This document shows positions 1,051 through 63,984 of a DNA stretch of 64,000 nucleotides, in pieces (positions within the stretch are counted from its first letter, which is position 1; each line of letters starts with the position of its first letter). The position numbers and the translations under genes were made by a program. Location: the NCBI GenBank assembly GCA_945833885.1, contig CAMAFY010000009.1, positions 1 through 64,000 on the forward strand, written 5' to 3'. The notes beneath the pieces are model-generated. The model was given only the letters and a program-made list of their open reading frames with translations. It had not been told where the DNA came from and made no database searches. This DNA is from an uncultured Bacteroidales bacterium. GTDB taxonomy: Bacteria; Bacteroidota; Bacteroidia; Bacteroidales; Bacteroidaceae.

Positions 1051-1270
1051 CGTTTCCTTTATAGGATTATGGCGTTTCCTTTTCAGGGTCGCAACGTTTC
1101 CTTTATAGGATTATGGCGTTTCCTTTTCAGGGTCGCGGCGTTTCCTTTTCAGGGTCGCGGCCTTTCCTTTTCAGGGTTGCAACGTTTCCTTTTCAAGGTT
1201 GCGGCGTTACTGTACAAAAGTAGCGGTGTTTTCTTTAAAAGGTCGGTGTGTTTCCGTTTAGGTTCGCGGC
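1051..1270. repeat. 22-bp-period tandem array 1 (10 units)
   Basis: Unit starts fall at 1051, 1073, 1095, 1117, 1139, 1161, 1183, 1205, 1227 and 1249, exactly 22 bp apart. Core CGTTTCCTTTTCAGGGTCGC, with an alternate type CGTTTCCTTTATAGGATT. The first four units alternate between the two types, giving a 44-bp higher-order period; the last units diverge. The array lies between gap and guaA, 46 bp before the guaA ATG. The 80-codon open frame across it is a translation of the array and not a credible gene. Confidence 0.93.
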
Positions 1271-1316
1271 ATATTCTCCTCTATAATATTATAGACAACC
1301 ACATATTTTGACCACG

Positions 1317-2939
1317 ATGCAACAGAAGATTATCATTCTCGACTTCGGTTCACAGACGACTCAACTCATCGGTCGTCGCGTTCGCGAACTCGACACATTC
1401 TGCGAAATCCTTCCTTACAACAAGTTCCCGCATGACGATCCATCGGTGATTGGTGTCATTCTCAGCGGAAGTCCGTTCTCGGTTTACGACCCTGAGGCCT
1501 TCCAGGTCGACCTTTCCCGTATCCGGGGGCGCCTTCCCATCCTTGGAATCTGCTATGGTGCGCAGTTCATGAGCCATATTTGGGGTGGAAAAGTAGAGCC
1601 CGCCGGCTCCCGGGAATACGGCCGTCAGCACCTTACCAGCGTGGACACCGAGAATCCTCTTTTTGAAGGTTTCGACCATGGAAGCCAGGTTTGGATGAGT
1701 CATGGCGACACTATCACCCGCATTCCTCAAGGTGCCCATGTCATAGCCTCTACCGAGACGGTAGAGAATGCCGCATATCACATTCCCGCCTCCAATGGCG
1801 AGAAGGAAGTGTGGGGCGTTCAGTTCCACCCCGAGGTGTTCCATTCCCTCCAAGGTACGCTGCTTTTGAAGAACTTCGTGGTTGGAATCTGCGGTTCCAA
1901 GCAGAACTGGAGTGCCGATTCCTTTGTAGAAACCACCGTAAAGGAGTTACGTGAGCAGATAGGAAGCGACCGTGTCATCCTCGGACTGTCGGGAGGTGTC
2001 GATTCAAGTGTTGCTGCCGTACTCCTCAACAAGGCCATCGGTAGCCAACTTACCTGTATCTTTGTGGATCATGGTATGCTCCGTAAGAACGAATTCAACG
2101 ATGTGATGCGCGACTATGAGTGCCTCGGCCTCAATGTCATTGGCGTGGATGCTTCCGAAAAGTTCCTCGGCGACCTTGCCGGAGTGAAGGAACCCGAGCG
2201 GAAACGTAAGATCATCGGACGCGATTTCGTGGAGGTCTTCAATGCCGAGGCCCGCAAAATCACTGACGCTCGTTGGCTTGCACAGGGAACCATCTATCCC
2301 GACCGCATTGAAAGTCTAAACATTACGGGTAAGGTCATCAAGAGTCACCACAATGTTGGCGGACTTCCCGAGGAGATGCACCTCTCACTTTGCGAGCCCC
2401 TCAAATGGCTTTTCAAGGACGAAGTGCGGCGTGTCGGACGCTCTATGGGCATGCCCGAGCACCTCATCACCCGTCATCCCTTCCCCGGACCCGGCCTTGC
2501 CGTGCGCATCCTTGGCGACATCACCCGTGAAAAGGTCCGCATCCTCCAGGATGCCGACGATATCTATATCCGTGGTCTTCGCGAATATAAGGTCCGCCTC
2601 TCCGGCGAAGAGGCCCGCCGAGTGCTGGCAGCAGGCGTTCCCGCCAACATGGAAAACGGTGAAATCGAGGTAAGTCTCTACGACCAGATTTGGCAGGCCG
2701 GCTGCATTCTGCTGAGCGAGGTCCGCTCGGTAGGCGTCATGGGCGACGAACGCACCTATGAAAATCCCGTAGCCCTCCGTGCTGTCACTTCCAGTGATGC
2801 GATGACTGCCGACTGGGCACACCTTCCCTACGATTTCATGGCAAAGGTTTCAAACGACATCATCAACAAGGTGAAGGGCGTGAACCGTGTTTGCTACGAC
2901 ATCTCTTCGAAACCGCCTTCGACAATAGAGTGGGAATAA
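1317..2939 (+). CDS. guaA: GMP synthase (glutamine-hydrolysing)
   Basis: Converts XMP to GMP using ATP and glutamine, the last step of guanylate synthesis. The class I amidotransferase domain (about residues 4-195) has GICYGAQ with the nucleophilic Cys and QFHPEVFHS with the catalytic His-Glu. The ATP pyrophosphatase domain shows the P-loop [11 protein letters not shown] (~225). The C-terminal dimerisation domain has [12 protein letters not shown] and ends [10 protein letters not shown], a standard GuaA terminus. The ATG at 1317 is preferred over the TTG at 1308. The length, 540 residues, is normal. A hairpin terminator follows at 3039-3091, and no partner such as guaB is adjacent. Confidence 0.97.
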
Positions 2940-3038
2940 TGCGGAAACCGCAAGGCATTAGAATTCATAAGCCCCGCTTCAGGCGTCCGGGTGCTGGAAG
3001 ATGCCATGCCTTTCCCCTCCCTCACCGATTGCATTTGC

Positions 3039-3091
3039 AAGGACCGCATCCCGATATTGCCCGTCAGTATCAGGATGCGGTCCTGTTTTTT
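3039..3091 (+). terminator. Rho-independent terminator after guaA
   Basis: Stem AGGACCGCATCC (from 3040) pairs with GGATGCGGTCCT (to 3084), followed by GTTTTTT. A long perfect stem plus a T-run, about 100 nt after the guaA stop. Confidence 0.85.
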
Positions 3092-3190
3092 ATGCCCAAA
3101 CGGCAGCACCTCCACCCCGGAAGTACCGGCGATGCGGCAAAGGTGTGCAAAGGTCGGCAGAACGTACAACTGATTTTCAACTGAAAAACC

Positions 3191-3380
3191 ACGGCATTTT
3201 GTCAAAGAATCCACGATGTTTCATCATGGAAACATCGACGTGTCATTGTGGGAACTACGGCATTTTGTCAAAGAAACCTCGGCACTTTATCATGAAAAGT
3301 ACGGCATTTTACCATAAAAAATACGGCACTTTTCCATGAAAAGTTCGGAGCATTATCATGGAAACCTCGGCACTTTTTGA
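3191..3380. repeat. 22-bp-period tandem array 2 (9 units)
   Basis: Unit starts at 3191, 3213, 3235, 3257, 3279, 3301, 3323, 3345 and 3367, exactly 22 bp apart. Core (A/T)CGGCA(T/C)TTT...CATGAAAA. This belongs to the most common core type in the window (CGG-A-TTT), also seen near 10.4, 19.8, 33.8, 45.1, 56.0 and 63.9 kb. Adjacent units hold TTT and AAA tracts that are partly inverted relative to each other. It lies between guaA and the GH20 gene. Confidence 0.93.
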
Positions 3381-3498
3381 AGATAATGCAGATGCCCTTT
3401 CTTTACCAAAGCGATGTTTCGTGGCATTGTCCGCCTGAATGTCATGGGGATTCCCGAAAATAAATCGGAAAAACTTCATAAAATCAATGTTTTTTTGC

Positions 3499-3506
3499 TA
3501 ATTTTG
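3499..3506 (+). promoter_or_regulatory. Putative -7 element of the GH20 gene promoter
   Basis: TAATTTTG matches TAnnTTTG. It lies 159 nt upstream of the hexosaminidase ATG and downstream of array 2, so transcription would start after the repeat array. Confidence 0.45.
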
Positions 3507-3664
3507 CACACAGAAGTTCCCTATCTTCAACGCCCTATATCCCTTTCCGTATCCGGCGGTTGCCGCGGATGCCTATCAGAAAATCCGCGGGATAGCGGAC
3601 ACCTTCTTGGAGAAACCTGTTAATGGCCTCTCCATTTTGAATTGGCAAATCCCAATATCATACC

Positions 3665-5821
3665 ATGAAAAATACCATTTTCCTACTGATTTTATCCATC
3701 TTTTCGCTGTCCTCATGGGCTGAGCGCATACACGTTATCCCTTATCCCGTGAAGGTGGAACTGAAAAACTCCCGCGTCAGCCTTCCGCAATCCGCACCCG
3801 TAAGCAGTAAGATTGATGCCAGCCTCGGCCATGCCGATGAATATCGTCTGAACATCTCGCGCAAAGGCATCGACATTGTGGCGCAGAGCAAGGCGGGTTT
3901 GCAGTATGCCTACGAAACCTTGGCGCAACTTCGTGCGCAGTACGATGAGAATTTGCCCGTGCTTTCCATCACCGACTACCCGCGTTACGAATGGCGAGGC
4001 CTTATGCTCGACTGCAGCCGCCACTTTTATACCCTGGAATATCTGAAGAAACAGGTGGATATGTTGGCACATTACAAGATGAACCGCCTGCATCTCCATC
4101 TGACAGACGACCAAGGTTGGCGAATGGAGATAAAACGTTACCCCGAATTGACGCAGCAAGGGGCATGGCGCACCTTCAATCAGCAGGACAGTATCTGCAT
4201 TGATACCTACAAAGACCAGCCTGAATTTGCCCTTGACCCGCGCTTTATCATCCATAATGGCGGACGTACGCTCTACGGTGGCTACTATACGCAGGAAGAA
4301 CTCCGCAGTCTTGTGGCCTATGCTCAGGAACGCCATGTTGAAATCATCCCGGAAATAGACATGCCGGGCCATACTCAGGCCATCTCTTCCATATATCCTC
4401 AGTTCACGGCTACGGGAGAAGCCAGTTGGGGCACCATATTCAGCGTCCCCCTTTCTCCGGCAAAGGAGGAGGTGTATACGTTCCTTCAGCATGTCCTCGA
4501 TGAGGTTATCGACATCTTTCCCTCGCGCTACATCCATATCGGTGCCGACGAAGTGGAGAAGAACACTTGGCGCGAGAGCCGTGAATGCCGTGAAATGATG
4601 GAACGGTTGGGCTTCAAGACCTATGAAGCCCTGCAAAGTTACTTCGTCAACCGCATACATGACTATCTGAAACAGAAGGGGCGCGAGATGATTTGCTGGG
4701 ATGATGCCATCGAAGGTGGCGACTATCACGCCCCCGATGCTGCGGGAGCCCTCAGCACGGATGCCAATGTCATGTATTGGCGTTATTGGGTGGGCGGTGT
4801 CCCCCAGCGCGTGACCGAACTGGGACATCACATCATTTTCACCCCCGGCGACCCGATGTATGTGGCCAATCCCGACGGTCCGCTCTACAACATCTACCAC
4901 TATCCCGGCCTCGACCTCGTACCTGACAGCCTGCAACATCTGGTCCGCGGAGGTCAGGTAAGCCTGTGGGGAGAGAGCATGAGCAACTTCCGGCGTGCCG
5001 ATTACTGCATCTATCCGCGCTTGGTGGCGCTTGCCGAACGCCTCTGGACCCCTTCCGAAGGTCGCGATTGGCAGGATTTCAAGGAGCGTCTCGACGTGGA
5101 AAAGGCCTGGCTTACCGCCCACGATGTCCACTATGCCCGCACAAATGCCCTGCTGACAGCCATGCAGACTGCCGACAAGGACCGCAAATGCATGCTCCTT
5201 TCCTTCGACTCTGAGTATGCCAACCCCGACATTCGCTACACCCTCGACGGCACTGTGCCCACCGTTTCCTCGCTGCGCTACGACGGAGAGCCCATCTCCA
5301 TCACGGATCCACAGACGGTTACCGCCGCCATCATGGAGAACGGCACGCCCCGGGAGCCGCTTTTCGTGCGCGAACTGGAGTATCACAAGGCCGTGGGAGC
5401 CACAGTTTCCTACACCACTGCCCGCTGGCACGAAAGTTACAAGGCGGCAGAGGTGGCAACATTCACCGACGGCCGGCGGGGTGGCAACGGCTATGGCGAC
5501 GGACTTTGGCAGGGTTTCACCCGGAGTTTTGATGTCGTCCTCGACCTCGGCAGCGTGATGCCTGTGAAGGAATTCTCCATGCGTTTCATGCAGAATATCG
5601 ATCCCGGTGTCTTCATGCCCGGAAAAGTGGAGGTGGCATGTTCGGAAGACGGCACGAATTACGGTGCTGTCAAGACCATAATCAACGACACTCCCGACAC
5701 GCAGAAGGGCACTATCATCAAGCCTTTCGCCACTTCGCTCGAAGGAAATGCGCGGTTCGTCAAGGTGCATGTGGAAAATCAGAAGGGGTTTGTCTTCTCC
5801 GACGAAATCGTCATCCGCTGA
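3665..5821 (+). CDS. Beta-N-acetylhexosaminidase, GH20, secreted
   Basis: Removes terminal N-acetylhexosamine from glycans by substrate-assisted catalysis, probably in the periplasm or at the cell surface. A signal peptide (MKNTIFLLILSIFSLSSWA) is followed by a GH20b-type N-domain (~20-120) and the TIM barrel (~125-480). The barrel has HLTDDQGWR, EIDMPGH and the catalytic Asp-Glu pair in HIGADEVEK. The C-terminal ~200 residues hold a chitobiase-type region and a discoidin-like (F5/8 C) domain near AVGATVSY...FTDGRRGGNGYGDG. The 718-residue length fits Bacteroidetes GH20 enzymes that degrade mucin or N-glycans. It is monocistronic as far as can be seen. Confidence 0.94.
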   Translation: MKNTIFLLILSIFSLSSWAERIHVIPYPVKVELKNSRVSLPQSAPVSSKIDASLGHADEYRLNISRKGIDIVAQSKAGLQYAYETLAQLRAQYDENLPVLSITDYPRYEWRGLMLDCSRHFYTLEYLKKQVDMLAHYKMNRLHLHLTDDQGWRMEIKRYPELTQQGAWRTFNQQDSICIDTYKDQPEFALDPRFIIHNGGRTLYGGYYTQEELRSLVAYAQERHVEIIPEIDMPGHTQAISSIYPQFTATGEASWGTIFSVPLSPAKEEVYTFLQHVLDEVIDIFPSRYIHIGADEVEKNTWRESRECREMMERLGFKTYEALQSYFVNRIHDYLKQKGREMICWDDAIEGGDYHAPDAAGALSTDANVMYWRYWVGGVPQRVTELGHHIIFTPGDPMYVANPDGPLYNIYHYPGLDLVPDSLQHLVRGGQVSLWGESMSNFRRADYCIYPRLVALAERLWTPSEGRDWQDFKERLDVEKAWLTAHDVHYARTNALLTAMQTADKDRKCMLLSFDSEYANPDIRYTLDGTVPTVSSLRYDGEPISITDPQTVTAAIMENGTPREPLFVRELEYHKAVGATVSYTTARWHESYKAAEVATFTDGRRGGNGYGDGLWQGFTRSFDVVLDLGSVMPVKEFSMRFMQNIDPGVFMPGKVEVACSEDGTNYGAVKTIINDTPDTQKGTIIKPFATSLEGNARFVKVHVENQKGFVFSDEIVIR

Positions 5822-6265: not shown

Positions 6266-6396
6266 CGCATCTTGCCCCTGTGTCTGGCGGAATCGTCAGG
6301 GCTTCATGGAGCCGCTCTTCGGCATTTCCCGTAAAAGTCTCTGCTGAATACGCCATGAAGTCCGGAACTGCGGTTGAGGCTGTAGGGGAAAGGGAG

Positions 6397-6551
6397 TGTG
6401 GATGTAGAGAAAAGAAAATGCGGATGCACGGGAGAAGAGAGTGTAGATACAGGAAAAGAGATTGTAAATGCACAGAAAAAATCGTGTGGATACCCGGGAG
6501 AAGAGAATGTAGATATAAGGAAAAAGGGTGCGGATATAAGGAAAGAAGACG
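6397..6551. repeat. 22-bp-period tandem array 3 (7 units, 21-23 bp)
   Basis: Units begin at TG(T/C)GGAT or TGTAGAT: 6397, 6419, 6442, 6463, 6485, 6508 and 6529 (steps 22, 23, 21, 22, 23, 21). Core TGTAGATATAAGGAAAA, very purine-rich on the plus strand. Unlike most arrays here the step wobbles by one base, but it averages 22. It lies between the YgbA-like gene and a terminator. Long minus-strand frames across it are artefacts of the array. Confidence 0.85.
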
Positions 6552-6576
6552 ATGATGGTCTTGGTCTGACAACAGG

Positions 6577-7050: not shown

Positions 7051-7158
7051 CAAAGGGAGTGGAACTGAGCGTCACCACGGTCACTGCCGTGGGAAAACTC
7101 AAGACTCTCCCCTGAAAATCCTATACGGAACAATAATCTTTCCTGCATTTTTCCGCAA

Positions 7159-7312
7159 GTCTTGAAAGACTGTTTCGCAGGTCTTGAAAGGCTTTTCTCC
7201 AGGTCTGAAACAGATTATCTTAAGGTCTGATGTAGATTTTCTGCAAGACTTGAAAGCCTGTTTTTCGGGTCTTGAAATGCAGTTTTACAGACCTTGCGGG
7301 GAAAATTGCAGG
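7159..7312. repeat. 22-bp-period tandem array 4 (7 units)
   Basis: Unit starts at 7159, 7181, 7203, 7225, 7247, 7269 and 7291, exactly 22 bp apart. Core GTCTTGAAAGNCTNTTTC. The core is unlike that of any other array in the window, but the period is identical. It lies between the receptor remnant and the PepSY pseudogene. Confidence 0.92.
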
Positions 7313-7363
7313 CATTCTCCATAAGAACTATCAGAACATTTTTCAACCAACACACAAGTAACT

Positions 7364-8107: not shown

Positions 8108-8132
8108 CCATCCGGTAAGTATTCCATTATTT

Positions 8133-10320: not shown

Positions 10321-10451
10321 CGGAGATAATTTATGTTTTGTCCAATTACTTTTGATGAATGATGAGGATGTACGAAGGGTGGGATGCGGAGGCGGGAGGG
10401 AATGGTGGAGGCAACGTCGTTCTGATGTGCCGCTTCGGGGAATGAAAACAT

Positions 10452-10539
10452 CGGAACTTTCCGGCTCAAAGTGCGGAACATTCTGCCTTAAAATGCGGCA
10501 CTTTTCGCCTCAAACACCGGCACTTTCCATCACCGGTTT
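10452..10539. repeat. 22-bp-period tandem array 5 (4 units)
   Basis: Units start at 10452, 10474, 10496 and 10518, exactly 22 bp apart. Core CGG(A/C)AC(T/A)TTNNNCCTCAAA, the common core type. It lies upstream of tadA and downstream of tex. The rest of 10321-10728 shows nothing I can assign. Confidence 0.9.
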
Positions 10540-13861: not shown

Positions 13862-13994
13862 TTCAAAAAAATCGGAATCGCATATATCTATTTCAAGATT
13901 TCACCCATATTTCTTCGGAATTGCAACCGGTTTGTACCGGGAACGCAATCATATTTCTTCGGAAATACAACAAAATTAGTTCAAGAATACAACC
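13862..13994. repeat. 22-bp-period tandem array ending 18 bp before pyrH
   Basis: Clear units at 13907, 13929, 13951 and 13973 (exactly 22 bp apart), with two degenerate ones upstream (~13862 and ~13884). Core ATATTTCTTCGGAAATACAA. The core is private to this locus. The array fills the space between birA and pyrH, so the pyrH promoter and leader must lie within or between its units. Confidence 0.88.
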
Positions 13995-14012
13995 ACAATA
14001 GCATAAACAATC

Positions 14013-14720
14013 ATGAAATTCAAGAGAATTCTCCTCAAACTCAGCGGCGAAAGCCTGATGGGTGAGCAAGGTTACGGCATTGATGTGAAGCGTTTGAACG
14101 AATATGCCGAGCAAATCCGCGACGCCCGCGGTAAGGGTGTGCAAATAGGAATCGTCATTGGTGGCGGTAATATCTTCCGCGGACTCAGTGGTGCCGGCAA
14201 AGGTTTCGACCGCGTGAAGGGTGATCAGATGGGAATGTGTGCCACCGTCATCAACAGTCTGGCCCTCAGCAGTGCGCTCGGAGCCATCGGGGTTCCCAAT
14301 CGTGTGCTTACCGCTATCCGCATGGAGCCCATCGGAGAGTTCTACTCCAAGTGGAAAGCCATTGAGGCTATGGAGAAAGGTGAGGTAGTAATCATGAGTG
14401 CAGGTACGGGAAATCCCTATTTTACCACCGATACCGGTTCCTCGCTCCGCGGCATTGAGATAGAGGCTGACGTGATGTTGAAGGGCACTCGTGTGGATGG
14501 TGTCTATACTGCAGACCCCGAAAAGGACCCCACGGCAACGAAGTTCTCCGACATCACATACGATGAAGTCATTGCCAGAGGTCTGAAGGTGATGGATATA
14601 ACTGCCACTGCCATGTGCAAACAGAACAATCTTCCCATCTACGTCTTCAATATGGACGTGGTTGGAAACTTGGCCCGCGTGCTTGAAGGTGAGGAAATCG
14701 GCACCTATGTTCACGCGTAA
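14013..14720 (+). CDS. pyrH: UMP kinase
   Basis: Phosphorylates UMP to UDP. It is a hexameric amino-acid-kinase-fold enzyme unrelated to eukaryotic UMP/CMP kinases. It begins MKFKRILLKLSGESLMGEQG; the glycine-rich GIVIGGGNIFRG, the GDQMGMCATVINSLAL region and AGTGNPYFTTDTGSSLR are all family hallmarks, as is VDGVYTADPEKDPTA. The 235-residue length is normal. The usual neighbours tsf or frr are not adjacent. The last 14 nt overlap the start of a GH16 lipoprotein gene. Confidence 0.97.
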   Translation: MKFKRILLKLSGESLMGEQGYGIDVKRLNEYAEQIRDARGKGVQIGIVIGGGNIFRGLSGAGKGFDRVKGDQMGMCATVINSLALSSALGAIGVPNRVLTAIRMEPIGEFYSKWKAIEAMEKGEVVIMSAGTGNPYFTTDTGSSLRGIEIEADVMLKGTRVDGVYTADPEKDPTATKFSDITYDEVIARGLKVMDITATAMCKQNNLPIYVFNMDVVGNLARVLEGEEIGTYVHA

Positions 14721-17011: not shown

Positions 17012-17177
17012 AATCCAACGTTCCCGTCGGGCGAAATGCGCGATTCAAAATCCGGTGAGGCGCATTAAGGCCACGCCATGACGCTGAAACGAAGGATGCT
17101 ATCCAAGGCTTTTTACCGCCTTGACATGTTGACGGCACCGGAAAGTGTTGTCGTCTCCACTCCCCACATCTCTATAA

Positions 17178-19734: not shown

Positions 19735-19793
19735 GTTTATGCTTATGTGTTAATGTGCATAATTGTTATGTCGGAGCATCGTCGTCGAATGCA

Positions 19794-19893
19794 CGGATGT
19801 TCTCGTCACAAACATCGGAAGATTTCGTCACAAACATCGGAACTTTGTGGTTGAAAGTTCGGCACTTTTCGCCATAAACATCGGATGTTGTTG
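19794..19893. repeat. 22-bp-period tandem array 6 (5 units)
   Basis: Units start at 19794, 19816, 19838, 19860 and 19882, exactly 22 bp apart. Core CGGAACTTTCGTCACAAACA, the common core type. It lies between convergent genes (TonB receptor and acyltransferase), so a role limited to promoters is unlikely. The remaining 19894-20064 shows nothing recognisable. Confidence 0.92.
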
Positions 19894-27412: not shown

Positions 27413-27586
27413 TTGCCTGTTTCTTGCTAACACACGCTTGTTCTACAGGGAATACTTGCTTGTTTTGCAGGTAATACACGCTTGTTCTACATGTGATGCG
27501 TGCCTTATTTGTAGACGATATATGCCTGTCTTACAGGTGATGTTTTGCTGTTTTACAGGTGAAGCCTTGCTGTCTTAACGTCAATT
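27413..27586. repeat. 22-bp-period tandem array 8 (8 units)
   Basis: Unit starts at 27413, 27435, 27457, 27479, 27501, 27523, 27545 and 27567, exactly 22 bp apart. Core TGC(T/C)TGTTTTACAGGTGA. Private core. It lies between the LRR gene end and the M60 gene start. The rest of 27242-27679 shows nothing I can assign. Confidence 0.94.
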
Positions 27587-27679
27587 TCCGGTCAAAACAG
27601 ATTTGGCGTCTGGAAAATGCTGTTTATAAATCCACCTTTACGGGAATGTTTTTAGAGAATGGGCATGAAGAGATCGGAA

Positions 27680-29116: not shown

Positions 29117-29152
29117 ATATCAATTTTTTTCATCGTGATTTTTTTGTCATTT

Positions 29153-29345
29153 ATGCCGATGTTCGGAATCTTTTATACCGATGTATAGAGTCTTTATGCC
29201 GATGTCCGGAATCTTTTTATACCGATGTATAGAGTCTTTATGCCGATGTTCGGAATCTTTTTATACCGATGCACGGAGTCTTTATGCCGATGTTCGGAAT
29301 CTTTATACTGATGTGTAGAGTCTTATTATGTCGATGTGCGGAACT
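29153..29345. repeat. Tandem array 9: alternating units, 44-bp higher-order period (9 units)
   Basis: CGATG cores at 29157, 29179, 29200, 29223, 29244, 29267, 29288, 29309 and 29332 (mean step 21.9). Units alternate between GCCGATGTTCGGAATC and ACCGATGTATAGAGTC, so the array grew in two-unit blocks of about 44 bp. It lies immediately upstream of the LRR gene. Confidence 0.92.
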
Positions 29346-32962: not shown

Positions 32963-33823
32963 AGGGTTTCAAATAAGGTGGGTTCAATGAGTTGCCACCG
33001 AAAATCTTTCTTGTTGTATTGTGGGTTGTGTCTTTCCGTCTTTCGGCATCTTTTCGGCTTGAAGTCCCTGTCCGTTCAGCCAAGCAGCACGCTGCCGGTC
33101 TTTGTGTCCACAGAGATTTACATCCCGAAAACAGATTCGAAAATACGGCAAAATCTATGGAACCCACCATAAACGACGACAAGGGTAGAGCGCTGTGAGT
33201 GCCTTTTCTGGCAAGTCTGTGAGGAAAAGTCTGCAAAACTCCCCCTTGTTTTCTGTGTGTAAAGGTAAGGCGTTTTTGCGAAATGTCCAAGAAAATGCTT
33301 GAAAAAGCGTGCGTTTTCGTCTTTCAGCGACTGATTTTGATTTGGAATGTCGGTTATTGTCCGTCAGCGATTGGCTGTTGTGGTGTTGCAAGGTGTGTGG
33401 CGAAGCCCGACGACAAAACCTTCGCTGTTCATGGTTTGCGGTTCGAAAATGCGGAACGGGTGCTTGTCGTTTCCCCGTTATTGCTCCACTTTTCTGAGGG
33501 CAATGCGCCGGCGGTTGCGGGGCTGGACGGTGATGGTTGCGGAACAGGGTGCTGATGATGACGGCATTGGTCGATGCCCTGTGGCCCGATTTTGTGTCCG
33601 GAGAGTTGGAATTGCCGGACGGAAGGTGTCTGTGGTGAGGCAGGGCGTTTTGGGCATCCTGCTGATGATTAGACGTGCGATATGATGGAAACACTACATC
33701 TTCGGAGTGGAAAAATCTGTATTTCCCTGCCGATTCGCCATAATGTCCGTCTTGGTTGCCGGAGGTTTCTGTAACGGATGCCAGCCCCGTAGAAACAGGG
33801 AGCGGGGGACGCTGTGGAAAACA
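32963..33823. other. Long gene-poor region upstream of the NfeD-like gene
   Basis: Open frames exist on both strands but none has protein-like composition or a family match. I recognise no gene, RNA or transposon. It is followed by a 22-bp array at 33824. Confidence 0.4.
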
Positions 33824-33911
33824 TCCGCACTTCGCGATGAAAACCTCCGCACTTTCCGTTCCAAAGTTCAGTACTTTTTTGTGGAAAGTGCGGAGGTTTT
33901 TCGGCCGTGTT
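33824..33911. repeat. 22-bp-period tandem array 10 (4 units)
   Basis: Units at 33824, 33846, 33868 and 33890, exactly 22 bp apart. Core TCCGCACTTTCCGTTCCAAA; the third and fourth units become the reverse-complement type (GTGGAAAGTGCGGAGG), showing the quasi-palindromic character of this core. Common core type. Confidence 0.88.
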
Positions 33912-37091: not shown

Positions 37092-37262
37092 ACATTGTTG
37101 AGGGAAACTGCAGAGGTTTCCGAAGGGATGTACAGGGTTTTCCGAGGGAATGTACGGAGGTTCCCGAGGGAATGTACGGAGGTTCCCGAAGGAATGTACG
37201 GAGGTTTACAAAGGGATGTTCGGAAGATCCCGTAAGAAAGTACGGATGTTTCCATCGAAAAA
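37092..37262. repeat. 22-bp-period tandem array 11 (8 units)
   Basis: Unit starts at 37114, 37136, 37158, 37180, 37202, 37224 and 37246, exactly 22 bp apart, plus a probable first unit at 37092. Core AGGTTCCCGAAGGAATGTAC. Private core; the central three units are nearly identical, suggesting recent expansion. It lies in the divergent region between DUF1846 and pta. Confidence 0.93.
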
Positions 37263-38882: not shown

Positions 38883-40076
38883 ATGAAAATCTTAGTAGTA
38901 AACTGTGGCTCAAGTTCCATCAAGTATAAACTGTATGAAATGGATGACAAGAGCGTACTTGCCGCAGGAGGAATCGAAAAAATAGGTCTTGAAGGTGCGT
39001 TCCTCAAGACAAAAATCAACGGTGAGACGAAGATCTTTCCCTTTGATTGCCCCACCCATACCGAGGGCATCAAGATGATGTTCGACACACTTCTCCATCC
39101 GGAGTACGGCTCTATCAAGAGCATCGACGAGATTGCCGCTGCCGGACACCGCATCGTGGCAGGCGGACGCTTTGCAGAAAGCCGTCTCGTGGACGAGGAA
39201 ATGTTGAAGGAATGGATAACCTATATGGACCTTGCTCCCCTGCACAATCCCGCACACCTCAAAGGTTACGAGGCTGTGAAGGCGCTCCTTCCCTCGCTTC
39301 CTCAGGTGTTTGTCTTCGACACTGCCTTCCATCAGACCATGCCAGCCAAGGCATTCATGTATGCCGTTCCTTATAAATATTATGAGGAGAACAAGATTCG
39401 CCGTTACGGAGCGCATGGTACCAGCCATCGTTTCGTGGCAGACCGCGTGTGCGAGTTCCTCGGTGTGCAGAAGGAAAACCAGAAGATTATCACCTGCCAC
39501 ATCGGAAACGGTGCCAGCATCAGCGCCGTTGACGGTGGAAAATGCGTGGACACTTCCATGGGACTTACGCCACTTGAGGGCCTGATGATGGGAACCCGCA
39601 GTGGTGATGTCGACCCCAGTGCCGTGCTGAAAATCATGAAAGACGACAATCTTTCCCCCGATGAGATGAGCAATCTGCTGAACAAGCAGAGCGGAGTGCT
39701 CGGCATCAGCGGCGTAAGTAGCGACATGCGCGAGGTTTGTACCGCATTTGAAGAGGGAAACCACCGTGCTGCCCTTGCCCTTGAGATGTACAGTTATCGC
39801 ATAAAGAAGTACATTGGCGCCTATGCTGCCGCAATGGGAGGCGTAGACACCATTGTTTTCACCGCAGGAGTCGGCGAGCACCAGTGGGACATCCGTTACA
39901 ACAGCACCACGAACCTGGAGTTCCTCGGTGTAAAATTGGATGAAGCCAAGAATCGTGCCAACTTTGGTGAGGAGGAAATCATCTCTACCCCCGACAGCCG
40001 TGTGAAGGTTGTGGTGGTTCCCACCGATGAAGAACTGATGATTGCCAGCGACACGCTTGCCATTGTTTCGAAATAA
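38883..40076 (+). CDS. ackA: Acetate kinase
   Basis: Makes ATP and acetate from acetyl phosphate. 397 residues. MKILVVNCGSSSIKYKLYEM is the ASKHA phosphate-1 start. Others: AAAGHRIVAGG, VFDTAFHQTMP with the catalytic Asp, YGAHGTSHRFVADR, CHIGNGASISAVDGGKCVDT, and VFTAGVGEHQ with the adenosine site. Partner of pta upstream. The last codons and stop lie inside a 21-bp repeat array (40060-40121). Confidence 0.97.
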   Translation: MKILVVNCGSSSIKYKLYEMDDKSVLAAGGIEKIGLEGAFLKTKINGETKIFPFDCPTHTEGIKMMFDTLLHPEYGSIKSIDEIAAAGHRIVAGGRFAESRLVDEEMLKEWITYMDLAPLHNPAHLKGYEAVKALLPSLPQVFVFDTAFHQTMPAKAFMYAVPYKYYEENKIRRYGAHGTSHRFVADRVCEFLGVQKENQKIITCHIGNGASISAVDGGKCVDTSMGLTPLEGLMMGTRSGDVDPSAVLKIMKDDNLSPDEMSNLLNKQSGVLGISGVSSDMREVCTAFEEGNHRAALALEMYSYRIKKYIGAYAAAMGGVDTIVFTAGVGEHQWDIRYNSTTNLEFLGVKLDEAKNRANFGEEEIISTPDSRVKVVVVPTDEELMIASDTLAIVSK

Positions 40077-40121
40077 TCTTCCATTGTTCCGAAACAATCC
40101 TCCATTGTTCCGAAACAATCG
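40060..40121. repeat. 21-bp tandem array crossing the ackA stop codon (3 units)
   Basis: CCATTGTT(T/C)CGAAA(T/C)AATC begins at 40060, 40081 and 40102, 21 bp apart. The core ATTGTTCCGAAACAAT is almost a palindrome. The first unit encodes the last residues (AIVSK) and stop of ackA. Confidence 0.88.
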
Positions 40122-40175
40122 ATAGCGATATCCGGAAAATCAATTCCGGAAATTCCCCGTTTCCACCCTCTTTCC

Positions 40176-40227: not shown

Positions 40228-40292
40228 GTCGTATGTGGACGATGGTGGAAATGGTGTCGAAGCATTGCATCCCCATCGGATTCCAGCAATAT

Positions 40293-40445
40293 CCTTGCCA
40301 GAAATAGACGGCAAGTTTATCCAAATCCGTCAGTCAATTTATCCAAATCTGGCTGTAAGTTTATCTAATATGGTTGCTTGTTTACATGAGTAAGGTAATA
40401 TGTTAATCCGAATCTAACGGCAAGTTAATTCGAAACAGACTGCAT
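40293..40445. repeat. 22-bp-period tandem array 12 (6-7 units)
   Basis: GTTTAT or GTTAAT cores at 40315, 40337, 40359, 40380, 40402 and 40424 (steps 22, 22, 21, 22, 22), with a probable unit at 40293. Core GTTTATCCAAATCTGNCNG. Private, AT-rich core. It lies between ackA and the GT2 gene. Confidence 0.88.
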
Positions 40446-40703
40446 TCTCAACAGATTCCAACAGTCTTTCTCCATGATTTCGACGACATGTCTATCAGGA
40501 TCCGGCAACACCCTTATCCGAAAGCCATTGTATCGTCATCCATATCATCCTGAGTCTTCATAGGCTTTTGTTGGCATTTGTTGTCGGATTTTGTCGGCAT
40601 TGATAGGGTGTGTCACAATGATTAAACGGTGAAATGACGGCTGGAAAATGGTGCGGGCCCCGATGTTCGTTGCCGTCTTGTGGCAGAAAAACACGGCAAA
40701 TGC

Positions 40704-45075: not shown

Positions 45076-45218
45076 GCGGAATCTGCCATCAGAAACATCG
45101 GCACTTTCCATTAAAAACCACCGCACTTTCCAGCCGAAAGTTCCGTACTTTCCTCACCGGACATCGGCACTTTCCTCACCAGACATCGGCACTTTCCGCG
45201 TCGGGGATTCGCACGTCC
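45076..45218. repeat. 22-bp-period tandem array 13 (6-7 units)
   Basis: Unit starts at 45098, 45120, 45142, 45164 and 45186, exactly 22 bp apart, with probable flanking units at 45076 and 45208. Core TCGGCACTTTCCTCACCAGA, common type. It lies between the sigma operon terminator and folA. Confidence 0.93.
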
Positions 45219-55845: not shown

Positions 55846-55980
55846 GGTAATGTGTTGTTTTATGTTTTTAAACAGGTTTCAACAATTGGTTTTTACATAA
55901 ACAGCGTTGAATTTTATATTGTTGGAACTTACTTCTGTTGAAGGTGTAAGGCAAGAGATAGCGCAAATTCATCTCCGTCT

Positions 55981-56112
55981 TCGGAACTTCCCATCGGAAA
56001 ATGCGGCACTTTGCGGTGCAAACCTCGGAAGTTTTTGACAGAAACCTCGGAACTTCCCATCGGAAAGTGCGGCACTTTCTGATGCAAATACCGGCACTTC
56101 TTCCGCCAGGAT
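55981..56112. repeat. 22-bp-period tandem array 14 (6 units)
   Basis: Unit starts at 55981, 56003, 56025, 56047, 56069 and 56091, exactly 22 bp apart. Core CGGAACTTCCCATCGGAAA or CGGCACTTTNNGNTGCAAA, common type. Units 1-2 resemble units 4-5, a 66-bp higher-order period. It ends 24 bp before dispersed repeat copy B. Confidence 0.93.
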
Positions 56113-58989: not shown

Positions 58990-59754
58990 TTATTTTGCGG
59001 CGGAACGGTGGAGAACGGAGCCTGAAGCCTGGTGTGTTGCGAGAACAAGTACTTCGGCAATCTGCACGTGTGCGGGTGCTGCTGCGGCATAAAACGCCAC
59101 GTCTGCGATGTCTTCTCCGGTGAGTGGCTTGATGCCTTGGTACACTTTGTCGGCACGTTCGCAGTCGCCATGGAAGCGTACCCGGCTGAAATTGGTCTCC
59201 ACGAGTCCGGGTTTGATGTTCGTTACGCGGAGGGCGGTCTCGGCAACATCAATGCGCAGGCCGTCGGTGATGGTCTTTACGGCCGCCTTTGTCGCGCAAT
59301 AGACGTTGCCGCCGGCGTATGCCGCGTCGCCGGCCACGCTGCCGATGTTGATGATGTGTCCGGCATTCCGTGCCACCATGCGGGGCACCAGCAGGCGTGT
59401 CATGGTCAGCAGACCCTTGATGTTCGTGTCTATCATGATGTCCCAGTCCGTCATGTCGCCCTCATATTCCTTTTCCAGTCCGAGTGCGAGTCCGGCATTG
59501 TTGATGAGGACATCGGGCGTTGCCCATGCTTCTTCCAGACTTTCCACGGCGCTTTTGGCGTCTTCGGCGTTGCGGACGTCGAACACGAGGGTGCGGACTT
59601 CCGTATTTTCGGCTTCAAGAGCCGATTTCAGGGCTTCAAGTTTCTGTGCGTTGCGGCCCGTGATGACGAGGTTGTAGCCGCCTTCTGCAAACTTCTTTGC
59701 GCACGCTTCACCGATTCCGCTGGTGGCGCCGGTGATAAAAGCGATTCTTTTCAT
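58990..59754 (-). CDS. Short-chain dehydrogenase/reductase (YdfG-like)
   Basis: 254 residues. TGATSGIGEACAKKFAEGGY is the NADP-binding TGxxxGIG motif; LINNAGLAL and GSVAGDAAYAGGNVYCATKA give the catalytic Ser-Tyr-Lys, with Tyr in YCATK. IKPGLVETNFSRVRFHGD matches the YdfG/L-allo-threonine and 3-hydroxy acid dehydrogenase branch. Substrate not certain. Start MKRIAFITGA at 59754 with no alternative. It lies 130 nt from the adhesin gene, same strand, and may be separately transcribed. Confidence 0.92.
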   Translation of the reverse strand: MKRIAFITGATSGIGEACAKKFAEGGYNLVITGRNAQKLEALKSALEAENTEVRTLVFDVRNAEDAKSAVESLEEAWATPDVLINNAGLALGLEKEYEGDMTDWDIMIDTNIKGLLTMTRLLVPRMVARNAGHIINIGSVAGDAAYAGGNVYCATKAAVKTITDGLRIDVAETALRVTNIKPGLVETNFSRVRFHGDCERADKVYQGIKPLTGEDIADVAFYAAAAPAHVQIAEVLVLATHQASGSVLHRSAAK

Positions 59755-59916
59755 AGTGCTTTGGGTGAATTCTATAAATTAGTCTTGCCGGTTTTTGCGT
59801 TTGTTTTCTGGATATGGTGCTGTAAATTTAGGATTATAGCGGGCTATATGACCGAAATTACAGGGATTGTTGGCAGAGAAAAACGGAAAGATAAGATTGT
59901 GTATATATTATATATT

Positions 59917-60158
59917 AGGTGTAAATGCCAGTATGTAAAGTGTGAACGCCTGTTCGTAGGAGGGCGAATCCCCATCTGTAAAGGCGTAGGTGCTGATATG
60001 CAATGGCGTAGGTGTCGATATTCAATGGTGTGGATGCCGATATGCAATGGCGTGGATGCCGATATGCAGCGGTATGATTGCTGACATGTAGTGATGTGCT
60101 TGCCGGCATGCAATGGCATGTTTGCCAACATATAGTGGCGAAAGGTTGGATGTGTTGA
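59917..60158. repeat. 22-bp-period tandem array 15 (11 units)
   Basis: Unit starts at 59917, 59939, 59961, 59983, 60005, 60027, 60049, 60071, 60093, 60115 and 60137, exactly 22 bp apart through the whole array. Core GGCGTGGATGCCGATATGCA. The middle units are near-identical and the ends degenerate. Private core. It lies between the MATE stop and the SDR start; the longest array in the window. Confidence 0.95.
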
Positions 60159-60198
60159 TGGTCCTGAACGCAGGAACACGTTGTGGACCGTGGTGTTT

Positions 60199-61500
60199 TC
60201 AGAATTTTCTGCGGATGATTCCCGGTAGCAGGCAGGCTTGCACGGCGCCACGGAGCGCGAGATAGAGGAGGAAACCTGCCCAAAGCCACACCTCGGGCAT
60301 CGGTGTGGGAAGGGTGAATCCCAGGATGGCGATGGTGAAATATCCGAGGGTGCCGATGGCTGTGCTGAGGAACATGCCACGGGTGGCGGTGATGCCGATG
60401 AACAGTCCGTCGTAGATGAAGGTGGAAATGCTGATGATGGGCACCACCATGGCAACGGGCATCAGGCGGATGGCGGCTTGTCGCACCGCCTCGACATTGG
60501 TCAGCAGGCGTACGGATTCCGCTCCAGCGAAGGCGAAGAACAAGGTGAAGAGCCCTGCCACACCGATGCCCCATACGAAAAGCGCGCGGTGGAGAATCTT
60601 GAAACGGGCGTGATGACCGCTCCCCATGAAGCGTCCGCCGAGGGCTTCTCCGGCATAAGCGAAGCCGTCCATGAAGTAACTGACGAAGAGAAAGAACTGC
60701 ATCAGTATGGCATTGGCGGCAAGAATGGTATCGCCCATCCGCGCTCCGAAGATGGTGAACGAGAACATGACGCTCACAAGGCAGAGTGTGCGGAGGAAAA
60801 TGTCGCGGCCGACGCTGAAATACCGCGCCCAACTGATGCGCTCCATTTGTCCTTCATCCTGGCGTTTCCGCAATCTGACGTAGAGCCGCCAGGCAAGGAA
60901 GGCGGCAAGTGCAAATCCTGCCCACTGCGCCGCGAGCGTTCCGGTGGCCACACCTTCGATGCGCCAGCCGAGAACAAAGACGAGATAGCAACTCAACCCC
61001 ACGTTGAGGAGGTTCTGTACCAAAGCCACCCACATCGGAGCGCGGGCATTTTGCAGGCCGATGAACCAACCGTTGAGTGCGAAAAGTCCGAGACTTGCCG
61101 GTGCGCCCCACACGAGAATGCGGAAATAGAGCAGCGAGAGTTCGCGCATTTCTCCCGATGCGTCCATCACTTTCATGGCAAGCATCGCCAGGGGATGCTG
61201 AAACAGGATGATGAGTGCGCTGACAATGCCTGCCACAACCATGGCGCGTTTCAGGCAAAGCCGTGCGCCGCTCCAGTCACGGGCACCGAAACGTTGGGCG
61301 GTAAGTCCGCCGGTAGCCATGCGGAGGAAGGAGAAAATCCAATAGCAGGTTGAGAATACCGAGGTGCCGATGGCGATGGCTGCCATGTAAACTTCGCTTC
61401 CAAGGTGACCGGTGATGGCGGTGTCGGCAAGGCCGAGCAGGGGAACGGTGATGTTGCTGATGATGGAAGGGATGGCAATGGACAGTATTCTTTTATGCAC
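60199..61500 (-). CDS. MATE family efflux transporter
   Basis: A sodium- or proton-driven multidrug/metabolite exporter with 12 membrane helices. ILSIAIPSIISNITVPLLGL then ADTAITGHLG is the MATE N-terminal motif, with ATGGLTAQRFGARD following. A second repeat begins near FLRTLCLVSVMFSFTIFGAR. It resembles the DinF branch. The start is uncertain: GTG at 61500 gives VHKRILSIAIPS, matching family N-termini; the open frame continues to a TTG at 61560 with 20 unconvincing residues. recG is 91 nt upstream of that TTG. Confidence 0.92.
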   Translation of the reverse strand: MHKRILSIAIPSIISNITVPLLGLADTAITGHLGSEVYMAAIAIGTSVFSTCYWIFSFLRMATGGLTAQRFGARDWSGARLCLKRAMVVAGIVSALIILFQHPLAMLAMKVMDASGEMRELSLLYFRILVWGAPASLGLFALNGWFIGLQNARAPMWVALVQNLLNVGLSCYLVFVLGWRIEGVATGTLAAQWAGFALAAFLAWRLYVRLRKRQDEGQMERISWARYFSVGRDIFLRTLCLVSVMFSFTIFGARMGDTILAANAILMQFFLFVSYFMDGFAYAGEALGGRFMGSGHHARFKILHRALFVWGIGVAGLFTLFFAFAGAESVRLLTNVEAVRQAAIRLMPVAMVVPIISISTFIYDGLFIGITATRGMFLSTAIGTLGYFTIAILGFTLPTPMPEVWLWAGFLLYLALRGAVQACLLPGIIRRKF

Positions 61501-61651
61501 GGTACGGAGGTTTTGGCAGGTTTCATCTTCCGTTTTCTCGCCATAGCATAGCGAAATCAAGTTTCACTTGTTGTCGTTCTGCCCGTATGGCTTGTCGAAA
61601 ACGTGTTCGTTTTCCCCATCAACGGCATTGGATGGTAGGGGAAACGGACGG

Positions 61652-63748
61652 TTAAGATATGTCGGAATAGTTGGCTTGATTGGCTTTTAGTTGTTGTAGC
61701 CTTGTCCAGAGAATGCGGTATTGCGGAAGTTTTTGCTCCGGATCGGCGTCGATGATGCGCTGTGCCGCCTCGCGCGCCTCGCTCATCATGACGCTGTCGC
61801 CGACGAGTGACGCTATTTTCAGTTCAAGCGGCAGGCCGGACTGTGCCGTTCCTTCGAGGTCGCCAGGTCCGCGGAACCTCAAATCGGCCTCGGCGATGCG
61901 GAATCCGTCGTTGGTTTCTACGAGAATCTGCATACGTTCGTGGGTGTTTTCGGCTAATTGGTCCTTGGTTACGAGGATACAATAACTTTGTTCTGCTCCG
62001 CGCCCCACGCGTCCGCGCAACTGATGCAACTGTGCGAGGCCGAAACGTTCGGCATTTTCTACAATCATCACCGAGGCGTTAGGGACATTCACCCCGACTT
62101 CTATCACAGTGGTCGAGACAAGTATCTGCGTTTCGTTGTCAGCGAAGGCCTTCATGGCGGCATCTTTCTCGGCAGGCTTCATCTTTCCGTGCACCATGCC
62201 CACCTTCCATTGGGGAAATCTCCGTTGTGTCTCCTCGAAACCCTCTTCAAGTGCTTTGAGATCAAGTTTCTCGTTTTCCTTGATGAGCGGATAAACGATA
62301 TAGACTTGTCGGCCACGATGAAGTTCGGCCTCCACACCTTGGCGTATTCTCTCGTACTGTCTTGAGGCGTAGTGCCGTGTGGTGATGGGCTTTCTTCCGG
62401 GTGGGAGTTCGTTAATGACGCTCACATCGAGGTCACCATAGACAGTCATGGCCAGGGTTCTCGGAATGGGCGTTGCCGTCATCACGAGGACGTGGGGTGG
62501 TCTGCTGTTCTTCGTCCACAGTTGTGCGCGCTGCTTTACGCCGAAGCGGTGCTGTTCGTCGATGACAGCGAGGCCGAGGTTGTGGAATTCCACGCCAGGT
62601 TCAATCAGGGCATGCGTGCCGACGAGTATCTGAATGTTGCCGTTTTTGAGTTCTTCGAGGGTCTCGCGGCGGCGTTTTCCCTTGACATTACCGGTGAGGA
62701 GCGCCACATTGACGCCAATCTGCCGCATCTGTTCGCAGAGTCCGCGGTAATGCTGTTCGGCAAGTATTTCGGTTGGTGCCATGATGCACGCCTGAAAGCC
62801 ATTGTCGATGGCGAGCAATGCCACGAGAGCGGCGACGATGGTCTTGCCGGAGCCGACATCTCCCTGCAAAAGCCTGTTCATTTGCCGCCCGGACTTCAGG
62901 TCGGCATGTATCTCTCTGATGACGTTTTTCTGCGCTTCTGTGAGGTTGAAGGGCAGGACGTTGTTGTAAAATCCGTTGAATTTCTCTCCTACCCGGGGGA
63001 AAGGCCAGCCTTCGGTGGCGGTTTGGCGCGACTTCGCATATTGGAGTATGGAGAGTTGGAGGTAAAAGAGTTCTTCAAATTTCAGCCGTCGCCGCGCATT
63101 GTTCACGTCTTCCGCGCTTTGGCTGAAATGAATGTCGCGGATGGCCTGCTCATGACTGACCAATCCGTGGGCATTGACAATGTCCTGTGACAGGGTTTCC
63201 GGAATCTTCGCGATTTTCTCGAAGGCGTTCGCCACCAGTTGGTTGATGACCTTCGACGTGATTCCCCTTCCCGTCAGTTTTTCTGTCAGATGATAGACGG
63301 GTTGCATGCGCAGGAGGGGACGGTTCTGCACCGTTTCCATCACCTCCATTTCGGGGTGTGCGATGCTGAAAGTGTTCTTAAACGCTTTCGGTTCTCCGAA
63401 GATCTGGTAGGTAACCCCAATCTTGCATATCTTTTCGAAGGTTTTCAGGCTGCGAAACCATATCAGTGTGACGATGCCTGTGCCGTCGGTGAAGTTGGCC
63501 ATAAGGCGTCTTTTCGGTCCTTCTCCCACGATTGATATGTCGATGATTCGTCCTCGGAGTTGGATGTTCTGCATTCCCTCATGGATTTCAGCGATGCGGT
63601 AGACGTGTGTGCGGTCTTCGTGTCTGAAAGGGAAGTGGTGCAGGAGGTCGCCAATGGTGTGGATGTCGAGTTCCGACGCCAATATCTGGGCGCGGGCTTG
63701 TCCCACACCTTTCAGGTAAGTGATGTCTTGGTCGAGGAAACTATACAC
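61652..63748 (-). CDS. recG: ATP-dependent DNA helicase RecG
   Basis: Remodels stalled forks and branched DNA. 698 residues. N-terminal wedge/OB region (DLLHHFPFRHEDRTHVYRIA), then helicase motifs: I, LLQGDVGSGKTIVAALVAL; Ia, APTEILAEQHY; II, VIDEQHRFGVKQR (DEQH); III, VMTATPIPRTLAMT; IV-VI including LVSTTVIEVGVNVPNAS, then QLRGRVGRGAEQSYC. The length is normal. Start MYSFLDQDITYLKGVG. The 22-bp array at 63853 lies 105 nt upstream. Confidence 0.97.
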   Translation of the reverse strand: MYSFLDQDITYLKGVGQARAQILASELDIHTIGDLLHHFPFRHEDRTHVYRIAEIHEGMQNIQLRGRIIDISIVGEGPKRRLMANFTDGTGIVTLIWFRSLKTFEKICKIGVTYQIFGEPKAFKNTFSIAHPEMEVMETVQNRPLLRMQPVYHLTEKLTGRGITSKVINQLVANAFEKIAKIPETLSQDIVNAHGLVSHEQAIRDIHFSQSAEDVNNARRRLKFEELFYLQLSILQYAKSRQTATEGWPFPRVGEKFNGFYNNVLPFNLTEAQKNVIREIHADLKSGRQMNRLLQGDVGSGKTIVAALVALLAIDNGFQACIMAPTEILAEQHYRGLCEQMRQIGVNVALLTGNVKGKRRRETLEELKNGNIQILVGTHALIEPGVEFHNLGLAVIDEQHRFGVKQRAQLWTKNSRPPHVLVMTATPIPRTLAMTVYGDLDVSVINELPPGRKPITTRHYASRQYERIRQGVEAELHRGRQVYIVYPLIKENEKLDLKALEEGFEETQRRFPQWKVGMVHGKMKPAEKDAAMKAFADNETQILVSTTVIEVGVNVPNASVMIVENAERFGLAQLHQLRGRVGRGAEQSYCILVTKDQLAENTHERMQILVETNDGFRIAEADLRFRGPGDLEGTAQSGLPLELKIASLVGDSVMMSEAREAAQRIIDADPEQKLPQYRILWTRLQQLKANQANYSDIS

Positions 63749-63852
63749 GTTTTTTGACTGGTTTTATGAGTGTTCCCGATGAAATGTGGCGTCATCGGTG
63801 ATGCCTTCACGGAGGTGTTGGCCCTATCTTTCGGATGCCCTGAATCTGCGCT

Positions 63853-63984
63853 TCCGGGTATGGTGTGACAAACGTCGGAACTTTGATGTTGGAACATCGG
63901 AACTTTTATAGGCAAACATCGGAACATTTATAGGCAAACGTCGGAACATTTTTTGACACGTTTCCGATGTCTTTCCGTCCGTCT
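63853..63984. repeat. 22-bp-period tandem array 16 (6 units)
   Basis: Unit starts at 63853, 63875, 63897, 63919, 63941 and 63963, exactly 22 bp apart. Core TCGGAACATTTATAGGCAAA, common type. It lies upstream of recG at the window edge and may continue beyond it. Confidence 0.92.

Follow-up and report, generated by a model that had tools for sequence, protein, structure and literature searches.

The intergenic DNA of an uncultured Bacteroidales bacterium carries short tandem arrays with a strict 22-bp period, and one class of these arrays consists of imperfect dyads whose centres lie two helical turns apart. We examined them in a stretch of 64,000 nucleotides (hereafter the window; positions 1-64000 of contig CAMAFY010000009.1, C9 in our numbering, assembly GCA_945833885.1), in its source genome (G000; 3.1 Mb in 89 contigs, 87% complete) and in other Bacteroidales. 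This first class, class A, combines a dyad with an exact register on both strands, near-random spacers, a preferred copy number and an intergenic location; its architecture recurs in four genomes and was retained in one orthologous gap. Class A arrays are probably cis-acting docking sites of a putative dimeric, sequence-specific DNA-binding protein, and the arrays of the second class, class B, are likely by-products.

The periodic signal is sharp. With at least 27 matches in 44 required, 898 positions of the window match themselves at lag 22, 79 at lag 21 and none at lag 23 or at any of 27 control lags; a coarser scan peaks at 22, 44 and 66, and Tandem Repeats Finder gives a period of 22, 44 or 21 in 22 of 23 rows, bearing out the first-pass annotation of the window, which had described intergenic arrays of 22-bp period. 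Delimited as regions, the signal amounts to 19 at lag 22 (threshold 25/44), three at lag 21 and one at lag 23 (threshold 26). The annotation's statement that the spacing hardly deviates holds for most arrays; the one at 40039-40149 has a period of 21, and both 21 and 22 occur in those at 29150-29343 and 6354-6556. All 19 lag-22 regions fall in gaps between genes as called by a home-made, hexamer-scored open reading frame (ORF) caller used in place of standard annotation, except that one reaches 6 bp into the start of a gene and that 6354-6556 lies under a 303-aa ORF which the caller rejected.

Beyond the window, a 400-kb sample from 18 other contigs of the source genome yielded 2359 positions at lag 22, 2280 at lag 44, 279 at lag 21 and 252 at lag 43, with at most 131 at each remaining lag from 10 to 60. 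Intergenic arrays in 464 kb of the genome had periods of 22 (70), 44 (17), 43 (6), 21 (3) and others (13), and the periods of in-gene arrays were multiples of 3. The dominance of 22 persists in 864 kb, where 143 intergenic arrays fold to 22 (44-bp arrays being counted as 22), 4 have a period of 21, 3 of 23 and 6 of 43, and one in-gene array has a period of 56. A 50-kb control stretch of E. coli K-12 contained a single array, of period 18. None of 73 arrays tested was located in any of 43 gaps shorter than 60 bp or of 16 tandem gaps of 60-100 bp, so that the reported avoidance of tight gaps was confirmed.

Among the 143 arrays, similarity to the CGG motif is clear in 69 (z > 3) and lacking in 66 (z < 2), the remainder being intermediate, in agreement with the earlier distinction between one widespread CGGNAC(T/A)TT type and many private types. 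Symmetry separates the two: a dyad was detected at p < 0.05 in 27 of 65 arrays of the CGG class (class A) and in 1 of 47 of the private class (class B, reduced from 66 by dropping arrays of fewer than 2.2 copies; Fisher p 4e-7), a first test on 90 own-genome arrays, unsplit by class, having given 23. The dyad, together with the preference for three or four units and the excess of arrays in convergent over tandem gaps, had escaped the first pass.

The class A core is AAANNNCGGMACTTT, an imperfect dyad of ~15 bp centred on the middle G and repeated with a centre-to-centre step of exactly 22 bp. Nine core columns (CGGMACWTT) were fixed by the search itself; outside them, AAA carries 1.3-1.5 bits and the 7-bp spacer is nearly random (0.08-0.56 bit per column). 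Two exact cores at a distance of 22 occur 73+85 times in the whole genome and never in 40 relatives, the reversed-pattern control giving 0+1 and 0-1, respectively; with one mismatch the counts are 191+176 in the source genome (control 1+5) and 0-3 in each of 57 other genomes of the genus. In the 864 kb, same-strand core centres lie 22 (58), 44 (33), 66 (19), 88 (7) or 110 bp (2) apart, with 2 at other distances, and opposite-strand centres 22 (11), 44 (12) or 66 bp (6), again with 2 others; within 120 bp, 119 of 121 and 29 of 31 distances, respectively, are multiples of 22. The register belongs to the dyad centres and not to the reading direction, which is flipped in 59 of 213 pairs of adjacent sites. 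Arrays with at least three sites of 4 bits (n = 77) mostly have four sites (46), less often three (13) or five to eight (18), and the modal length stays at four under both laxer and stricter definitions. Where the end units are opposed, one orientation prevails (28 vs 13 in the source genome, p 0.03; 11 vs 2 in Prevotella koreensis, p 0.02), and by our reading the weaker half-site faces outward in both species. Scaled from the 864-kb sample, and provided that it is representative, the genome would contain ~280 class A arrays; because pattern hits partly guided the choice of the second own-genome batch and of half the P. koreensis stretches, densities there, and this figure, may be overestimates.

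The cultured species P. koreensis (NZ_RYYU01000001) has arrays with the same 22-bp step built on a different dyad, CAAWTTCGCCCAAWTTG, with a 17-bp core. Pairs at 22 with at most one mismatch number 81+69 in the whole genome (controls 0). In 400 kb, exact cores are concentrated in intergenic DNA (56 in 64 kb vs 2 in 336 kb of coding sequence), and their centre distances are solely 22, 44 and 66 (21, 12 and 5 on the same strand; 6, 5 and 4 on opposite strands). With position weight matrices (PWMs) and a dyad axis derived from the same arrays that were later counted, all 64 successive spacings within 70 bp equal 22, and a phased partner accompanies 86 of 89 intergenic sites, leaving 3 alone; 20 of 22 arrays with at least three sites of 4 bits have four sites and two have three. 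One contiguous stretch, 500-700 kb, contains 7 arrays. The sample that holds these 22 arrays has 60 intergenic arrays of all periods, only 27 of them at 22, indicating that other short repeats are present too.

A third dyad, TTCCCANNNTGGGAA, was found in two uncultured Prevotella, G086 (locus L013) and G087 (locus L024), hereafter the TTCCCA genomes. Pairs at 22 with at most two mismatches occur 14 times in G086 and 33 times in G087 (controls 0), with none in G088 or P. koreensis. Exactly three sites are present in 11 of 13 fetched G087 arrays (one other has two, one four) and in all seven fetched G086 arrays, loci sampled twice (L254/L024 and L265/L013) being counted once; five weaker G087 places were left out, of which, by the listed matches, two look three-unit and three two-unit. 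One array occupies the orthologous gap of both genomes, between a prolyl oligopeptidase gene (proteins 64% identical) and a major facilitator superfamily transporter gene (93%). By hand count, all 36 arm bases are identical, while 13 of 23 centre and spacer bases are identical and 10 changed, which is the best single evidence for purifying selection on the arms and their spacing.

The association of dyads with this period extends to other Bacteroidales. Among non-coding arrays from loci around the DUF1846 gene and from samples of further genomes, a dyad (p < 0.05) is present in 28 of the 58 with a period of 21-23 and in 9 of the 89 with other periods (Fisher p 4e-7); L151-L169 and arrays with an open frame running through them were dropped, and since L002 and L180 overlap, at least two rows of the other-period group were counted twice. 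The words differ: TGAAACTNNNAGTTTCA in G068, TCGTCCGCGGACGA in G046, ACAACCTAGGTTGT in G010, GGCTCACNNNCGTGAGCC in L044 and GTCCCANNNTGGGAC in L005, and G064, whose DUF1846 protein is 95% identical to that of the window, has AAAGT-like arms around a different centre. In 75 kb of G071, a genome as close as G064, no array of period 21-23 was found.

Other repeats were noted in the same loci. G071 has an array of 41/42-bp period, equal to four helical turns, with the dyad TGTCGACACGTGTCAACA (L249:2698-2877). A single 20-kb stretch of G010 (L119) has two arrays (4005-4152 and 17174-17374) that differ in dyad and period: ACAACCTAGGTTGT recurs every 22 bp, and GAACTAGTTC, whose halves are inverted, every 21 bp. 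Similar 21-bp dyads, TTCTGCA...TGCAGAA/TGTAGAA, occur in three species (L062:7176-7252, L117:16123-16177, L129:12804-12862), 11-bp direct repeats, one helical turn long, at L016:14515-14748, L038:142-264 and L080:2774-2881, and in several Bacteroidales loci multiples of 7 bp (14, 21, 28) are frequent too.

Dimers that join along one face of the helix would require just such a design: a dyad at every second turn, held exactly across near-random spacers and strand flips, three or four times per array. We infer that each dyad would take one dimer, that centres 22 bp apart would place all dimers on one helix face, and that three or four dimers would join into one oligomer, probably bending or wrapping ~60-90 bp of DNA. 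The number of dimers would be strongly preferred in each species (four in P. koreensis, most often four in the window genome, three in the TTCCCA genomes), and Bacteroidales would have the 22-bp spacing in common, with changes of the recognised word from one species to another. The first-pass suggestion of a protein ruler that fixes two turns is thus well supported, though unproven, for the widespread type; for the private types, which have only the period in common, a single binding protein is no explanation. As to effect, we favour a boundary between genes, either of transcription or of topology, since arrays are found in convergent gaps more often than in tandem ones: 16 of 50 convergent vs 33 of 354 tandem gaps hold one in the source genome (p 5e-5), and 7 of 31 vs 6 of 148 in P. 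koreensis (p 0.002). If a protein does bind, its specificity has changed between species with the geometry kept, which would be unusual for a widely acting DNA-binding protein, and in P. koreensis the model is directly testable. Class A is in any case an intergenic element class with a clean physical metric, and literature searches, several of them narrow in their terms, found no description of such arrays in open-access papers. A bolder version, which we regard as doubtful, would have a nucleosome-like particle in Prevotella-type Bacteroidales, in which an oligomer of fixed size (three or four dimers) wraps a 66-88-bp array at gene boundaries, with an order-wide metric and a species-specific word, and unselected arrays decay into private 22-bp satellites.

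Several observations weigh against docking sites for such a protein. Copy number depends on how it is defined: with exact seeds, own-genome arrays have 2 to 7 sites, and in P. koreensis three sites are counted in 10 arrays and four in 11; at a laxer threshold, 26 of 57 own-genome arrays reach four sites and most of the others five to eight, and 18 P. koreensis arrays divide into 14 of four, 3 of five and 1 of six. Some "three-site" own-genome arrays are two sites 44 bp apart, and 145 of 446 own intergenic sites of at least 8 bits are alone. One central substitution suffices to flip the reading direction of a symmetric unit, and the end units have equal orientation in 36 of 77 own-genome and 9 of 22 P. 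koreensis arrays. Distinct spacer words are fewer than expected (130 vs 139 in the source genome, 22 vs 30 in P. koreensis), implying that some units were copied. With one mismatch allowed, P. koreensis has 90 coding vs 91 intergenic cores, and 4 of 72 same-strand and 6 of 42 opposite-strand distances (two of them self-overlaps at 0) are off 22. Arrays of other periods in the cross-order set show a faint dyad excess as well (mean z 0.49). Class B has no dyad explanation and lies at distances from class A sites like those of random positions. Convergent and divergent gaps do not differ significantly (p 0.06 in the source genome, 0.75 in P. koreensis), and insertion tolerance could yield the same convergent excess.

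The search for the binding protein adds to these points. A search for HTH_3 proteins, with 2-7 hits in each genome, brought up no candidate binder. An Lrp/AsnC protein was considered and rejected: its segment GVSRAAIHQRV, which we take to be the recognition helix from what is known of the family, is identical in G000, G064, G071, G046, G022, G083 and P. koreensis, despite differing words in several of them. Of 10 genomes searched, 7 have two Lrp/AsnC paralogues, 2 have one and 1 has none. As to flanking genes, 84 Pfam families matched by 40 proteins next to the 22 P. koreensis arrays reveal no theme, with no helix-turn-helix family among the 25 shown, and there was none in the 10 of 44 flanking proteins scanned in G086 and G087.

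The Lrp/AsnC (feast/famine) operator is nonetheless, by analogy, the closest described design. Such operators are described as 13-17-bp imperfect inverted repeats, two or three helical turns apart from centre to centre, with the DNA wrapped on an oligomer (PMC2995911), and 4 to 5 regularly spaced sites are predicted in the account of BarR of Sulfolobales (PMC10201364). The 15-bp and 17-bp dyads of the present arrays lie within that size range, and several sites, here mostly three to four, recur at a regular whole-turn spacing, here 22 bp. Lrp/AsnC operators, however, lie in promoters of particular genes, whereas the present arrays are many per genome and often between convergent genes. Since the recognition helix of the Lrp homologue is constant while the words differ, the arrays would work like an Lrp operator and should not be filed as one. 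Among other phased or repeated sites, the stoperators of mycobacteriophage L5 are many single, asymmetric repressor sites in gaps, and plasmid iterons are 19-22-bp direct repeats at one origin, bound by one protein; unlike either, the dyads here flip in register and occupy many loci.

Class B requires a separate explanation. Its 47 arrays of at least 2.2 copies have a broad copy number, up to 14 units, and a median neighbour identity of 0.69; of 150 unit steps in the 30 arrays with 3.5 copies or more, 141 measure 22, the regions having been cut by lag-22 match, which favours 22. Neither a dyad nor a common sequence was found in this own-genome private set, and clustering produced no clear families (28 of 1081 pairs above the 99% null, with 11 expected, and 5 above the largest null value). 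Class A sites are as dense inside class B arrays as in the background (1.91 vs 1.91 per kb), convergent gaps are not enriched (3 of 50), and an 11-bp sub-period and A/T phasing are weak. With only the period in common, neither a single binding protein nor a common transposon accounts for class B.

Such arrays, unrelated to class A and with occasional 44-bp higher-order units, are what a fixed-step copying machine would leave if polymerase slippage or a repair or nuclease ruler of about two turns duplicated 22 bp of any sequence. We judge this improbable for the arrays as a whole, given that the class A dyads, the exact register across near-random spacers, the flips and the preferred copy number would stay unexplained, that the E. 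coli control has no 22-bp array and that fewer than half of the P. koreensis arrays are at 22. Moreover, two window arrays that appear private, at 37100-37253 and 29150-29343, score as diverged relatives of the widespread type, a correction to the first-pass grouping that points to a possible route from class A to private arrays. Of similarly low probability is the proposal that all are ordinary slippage minisatellites whose common period was inherited from one ancestral satellite that spread and diverged. It accounts for a kept period with drifting sequence and fits the slightly positive similarity of class B to class A (mean z 0.40, though the set was cut at z < 2), but the class A copy number peaks at three or four and is not broad, and unrelated dyads have the same period in different species. 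For class B itself, fixed-step copying may have acted, and in-register amplification after loss of constraint is the likeliest, though unproven, origin: through slippage or unequal exchange an existing 22-bp lattice would expand by 22 or 44 bp at a time, and the sequence would then drift with the period inherited. Most class B arrays have no link to class A; the route nevertheless suggests how a functional phased array could seed seemingly unrelated satellites.

Comparison of orthologous gaps shows both retention and absence of arrays. The arms were kept in the gap common to G086 and G087; the gap upstream of DUF1846 has an array in the window and none in G064, G071 or G046, a further point against the docking-site reading, and the only other array-bearing gap comparable on both sides (59754-60199, class B) has no array in G071, so that arrays there came or went since the species parted. 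Such turnover would suit selfish dispersed repeats, the dyad being the end or hairpin of a mobile unit that inserts new copies of itself between genes. Interspersed palindromes of this kind, the repetitive extragenic palindromic (REP) sequences and bacterial interspersed mosaic elements (BIMEs) associated with RAYT transposases, are species-specific and intergenic, as are the arrays, which are also numerous and lie in convergent gaps, where insertions may be tolerated. Flanks are conserved above shuffled sequence in P. koreensis and own-genome arrays (0.23-0.30 vs 0.16 bit; 0.10 vs 0.03), again to the detriment of the docking-site reading, and flank 12-mers in common number 65 in P. koreensis and 18 in the source genome. 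By eye, inverted GGCTC/GAGCC words often lie 5-15 bp outside the three-unit arrays of G087, and three of its loci (L255, L256 and L261) have longer flanks in common, as if within a dispersed repeat. Even so, we think a dispersed repeat unlikely. No common ends are apparent among 18 P. koreensis and 40 own-genome arrays printed, two P. koreensis arrays with common flanks represent a local duplication, which may be the source of some or all of the common 12-mers there, and spacers and single-unit orientation differ from array to array. One array was retained, with its arms conserved, in an orthologous gap, and three or four units in an exact 22-bp tandem register are unlike REP/BIME. A RAYT/REP transposase seems an unlikely spreading agent: a Y1_Tnp match is present in 38 of 61 genomes searched, and the most array-rich genome, G000, has one partial hit (8e-10), leaving no clear RAYT correlate.

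The precedent named in the first pass, the BrickBuilt elements of Porphyromonas gingivalis, proved a poor match. They too are intergenic tandem units of about two turns in Bacteroidales, but their published description is of a 23-nt unit of one sequence in 1 to 22.8 copies at 19 loci, with a leader and a tail bearing terminal inverted repeats (both repeats in 4 of 19 copies; three copies without leader and tail; PMC4596501), in contrast to the 22-bp unit with different words seen here and, in the P. koreensis and own-genome arrays printed, without common ends, although G087 has its GGCTC/GAGCC flanks. The same paper mentions 41-, 23- and 22-nt tandem repeats described earlier in strain W83 without locations (PMC4596501).

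Finally, the dyads could be RNA or cruciform hairpins, such as tandem small hairpins in 3' regions; many could fold, and several arrays lie near gene ends in convergent gaps. We consider this very improbable. The arms covary little, which speaks against hairpins: 16 arm pairs in two species are mostly at shuffled expectation (three exceed |z| 2 positively, at 2.2, 2.5 and 3.2, and one negatively, at -2.2). Several arm positions are mostly mismatched, and an Rfam search of the window gave no match.

Arrays of the window, with class assignment, coordinates and strand
Feature	Coordinates	Strand	Remarks
Class A, 6 dyad sites	3251..3377	+	centres 3259-3369, step 22; PWM 14-22 bits; orientation ++++-+
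Class A, 4 sites	10445..10527	+	centres 10453, 10475, 10497, 10519; 20-25 bits each; also in pattern search
Class A, 4 sites, convergent gap	19787..19869	+	first site weak (4.6 bits), flipped (-+++)
Class A, 4 sites	33818..33900	.	orientation ++--; 16-21 bits each
Class A, 5 sites	45092..45196	+	middle site flipped (++-++); 18-25 bits each
Class A, 6 sites	55975..56101	+	10-24 bits each
Class A, 4 sites	63869..63951	+	15-20 bits each
Transitional, expanded 7-unit class A relative	37104..37252	-	6/7 units 9-17 bits; no array in orthologous gap of G064, G071, G046
Transitional, 44-bp higher-order unit	29123..29344	.	three alternate units class A-like (~8 bits); mixes 21 and 22
Class B, 9.5 copies, 44-bp higher-order pattern	1051..1258	.	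z to class A motif 1.6; dyad p 0.16
Degenerate array, mixed 21/22 period, neither class	6354..6556	.	z to class A motif 2.5
Class B	7128..7312	.	lag scan, class tests
Class B	13916..14018	.	lag scan, class tests
Class B, 6.8 copies	27415..27596	.	CCTGTNNNACAGG visible by eye, but dyad p 0.07
21-bp array, dyad ATTGTTNCGNAACAAT, at gene edge	40039..40149	.	dyad p 0.005
Class B	40290..40468	.	lag scan, class tests
Class B, 7.5 copies	59948..60145	.	no array in orthologous gap of G071

Coding density in the 864-kb sample is only ~76% by the home-made gene calls, and some window gaps far exceed their G064 counterparts (319 vs 35 bp beside 35591; 284 vs 54 bp at 38597). Among the genes of the window, one on the minus strand (24533-27241) encodes a protein with Peptidase M60, F5/8 type C and BACON domains.

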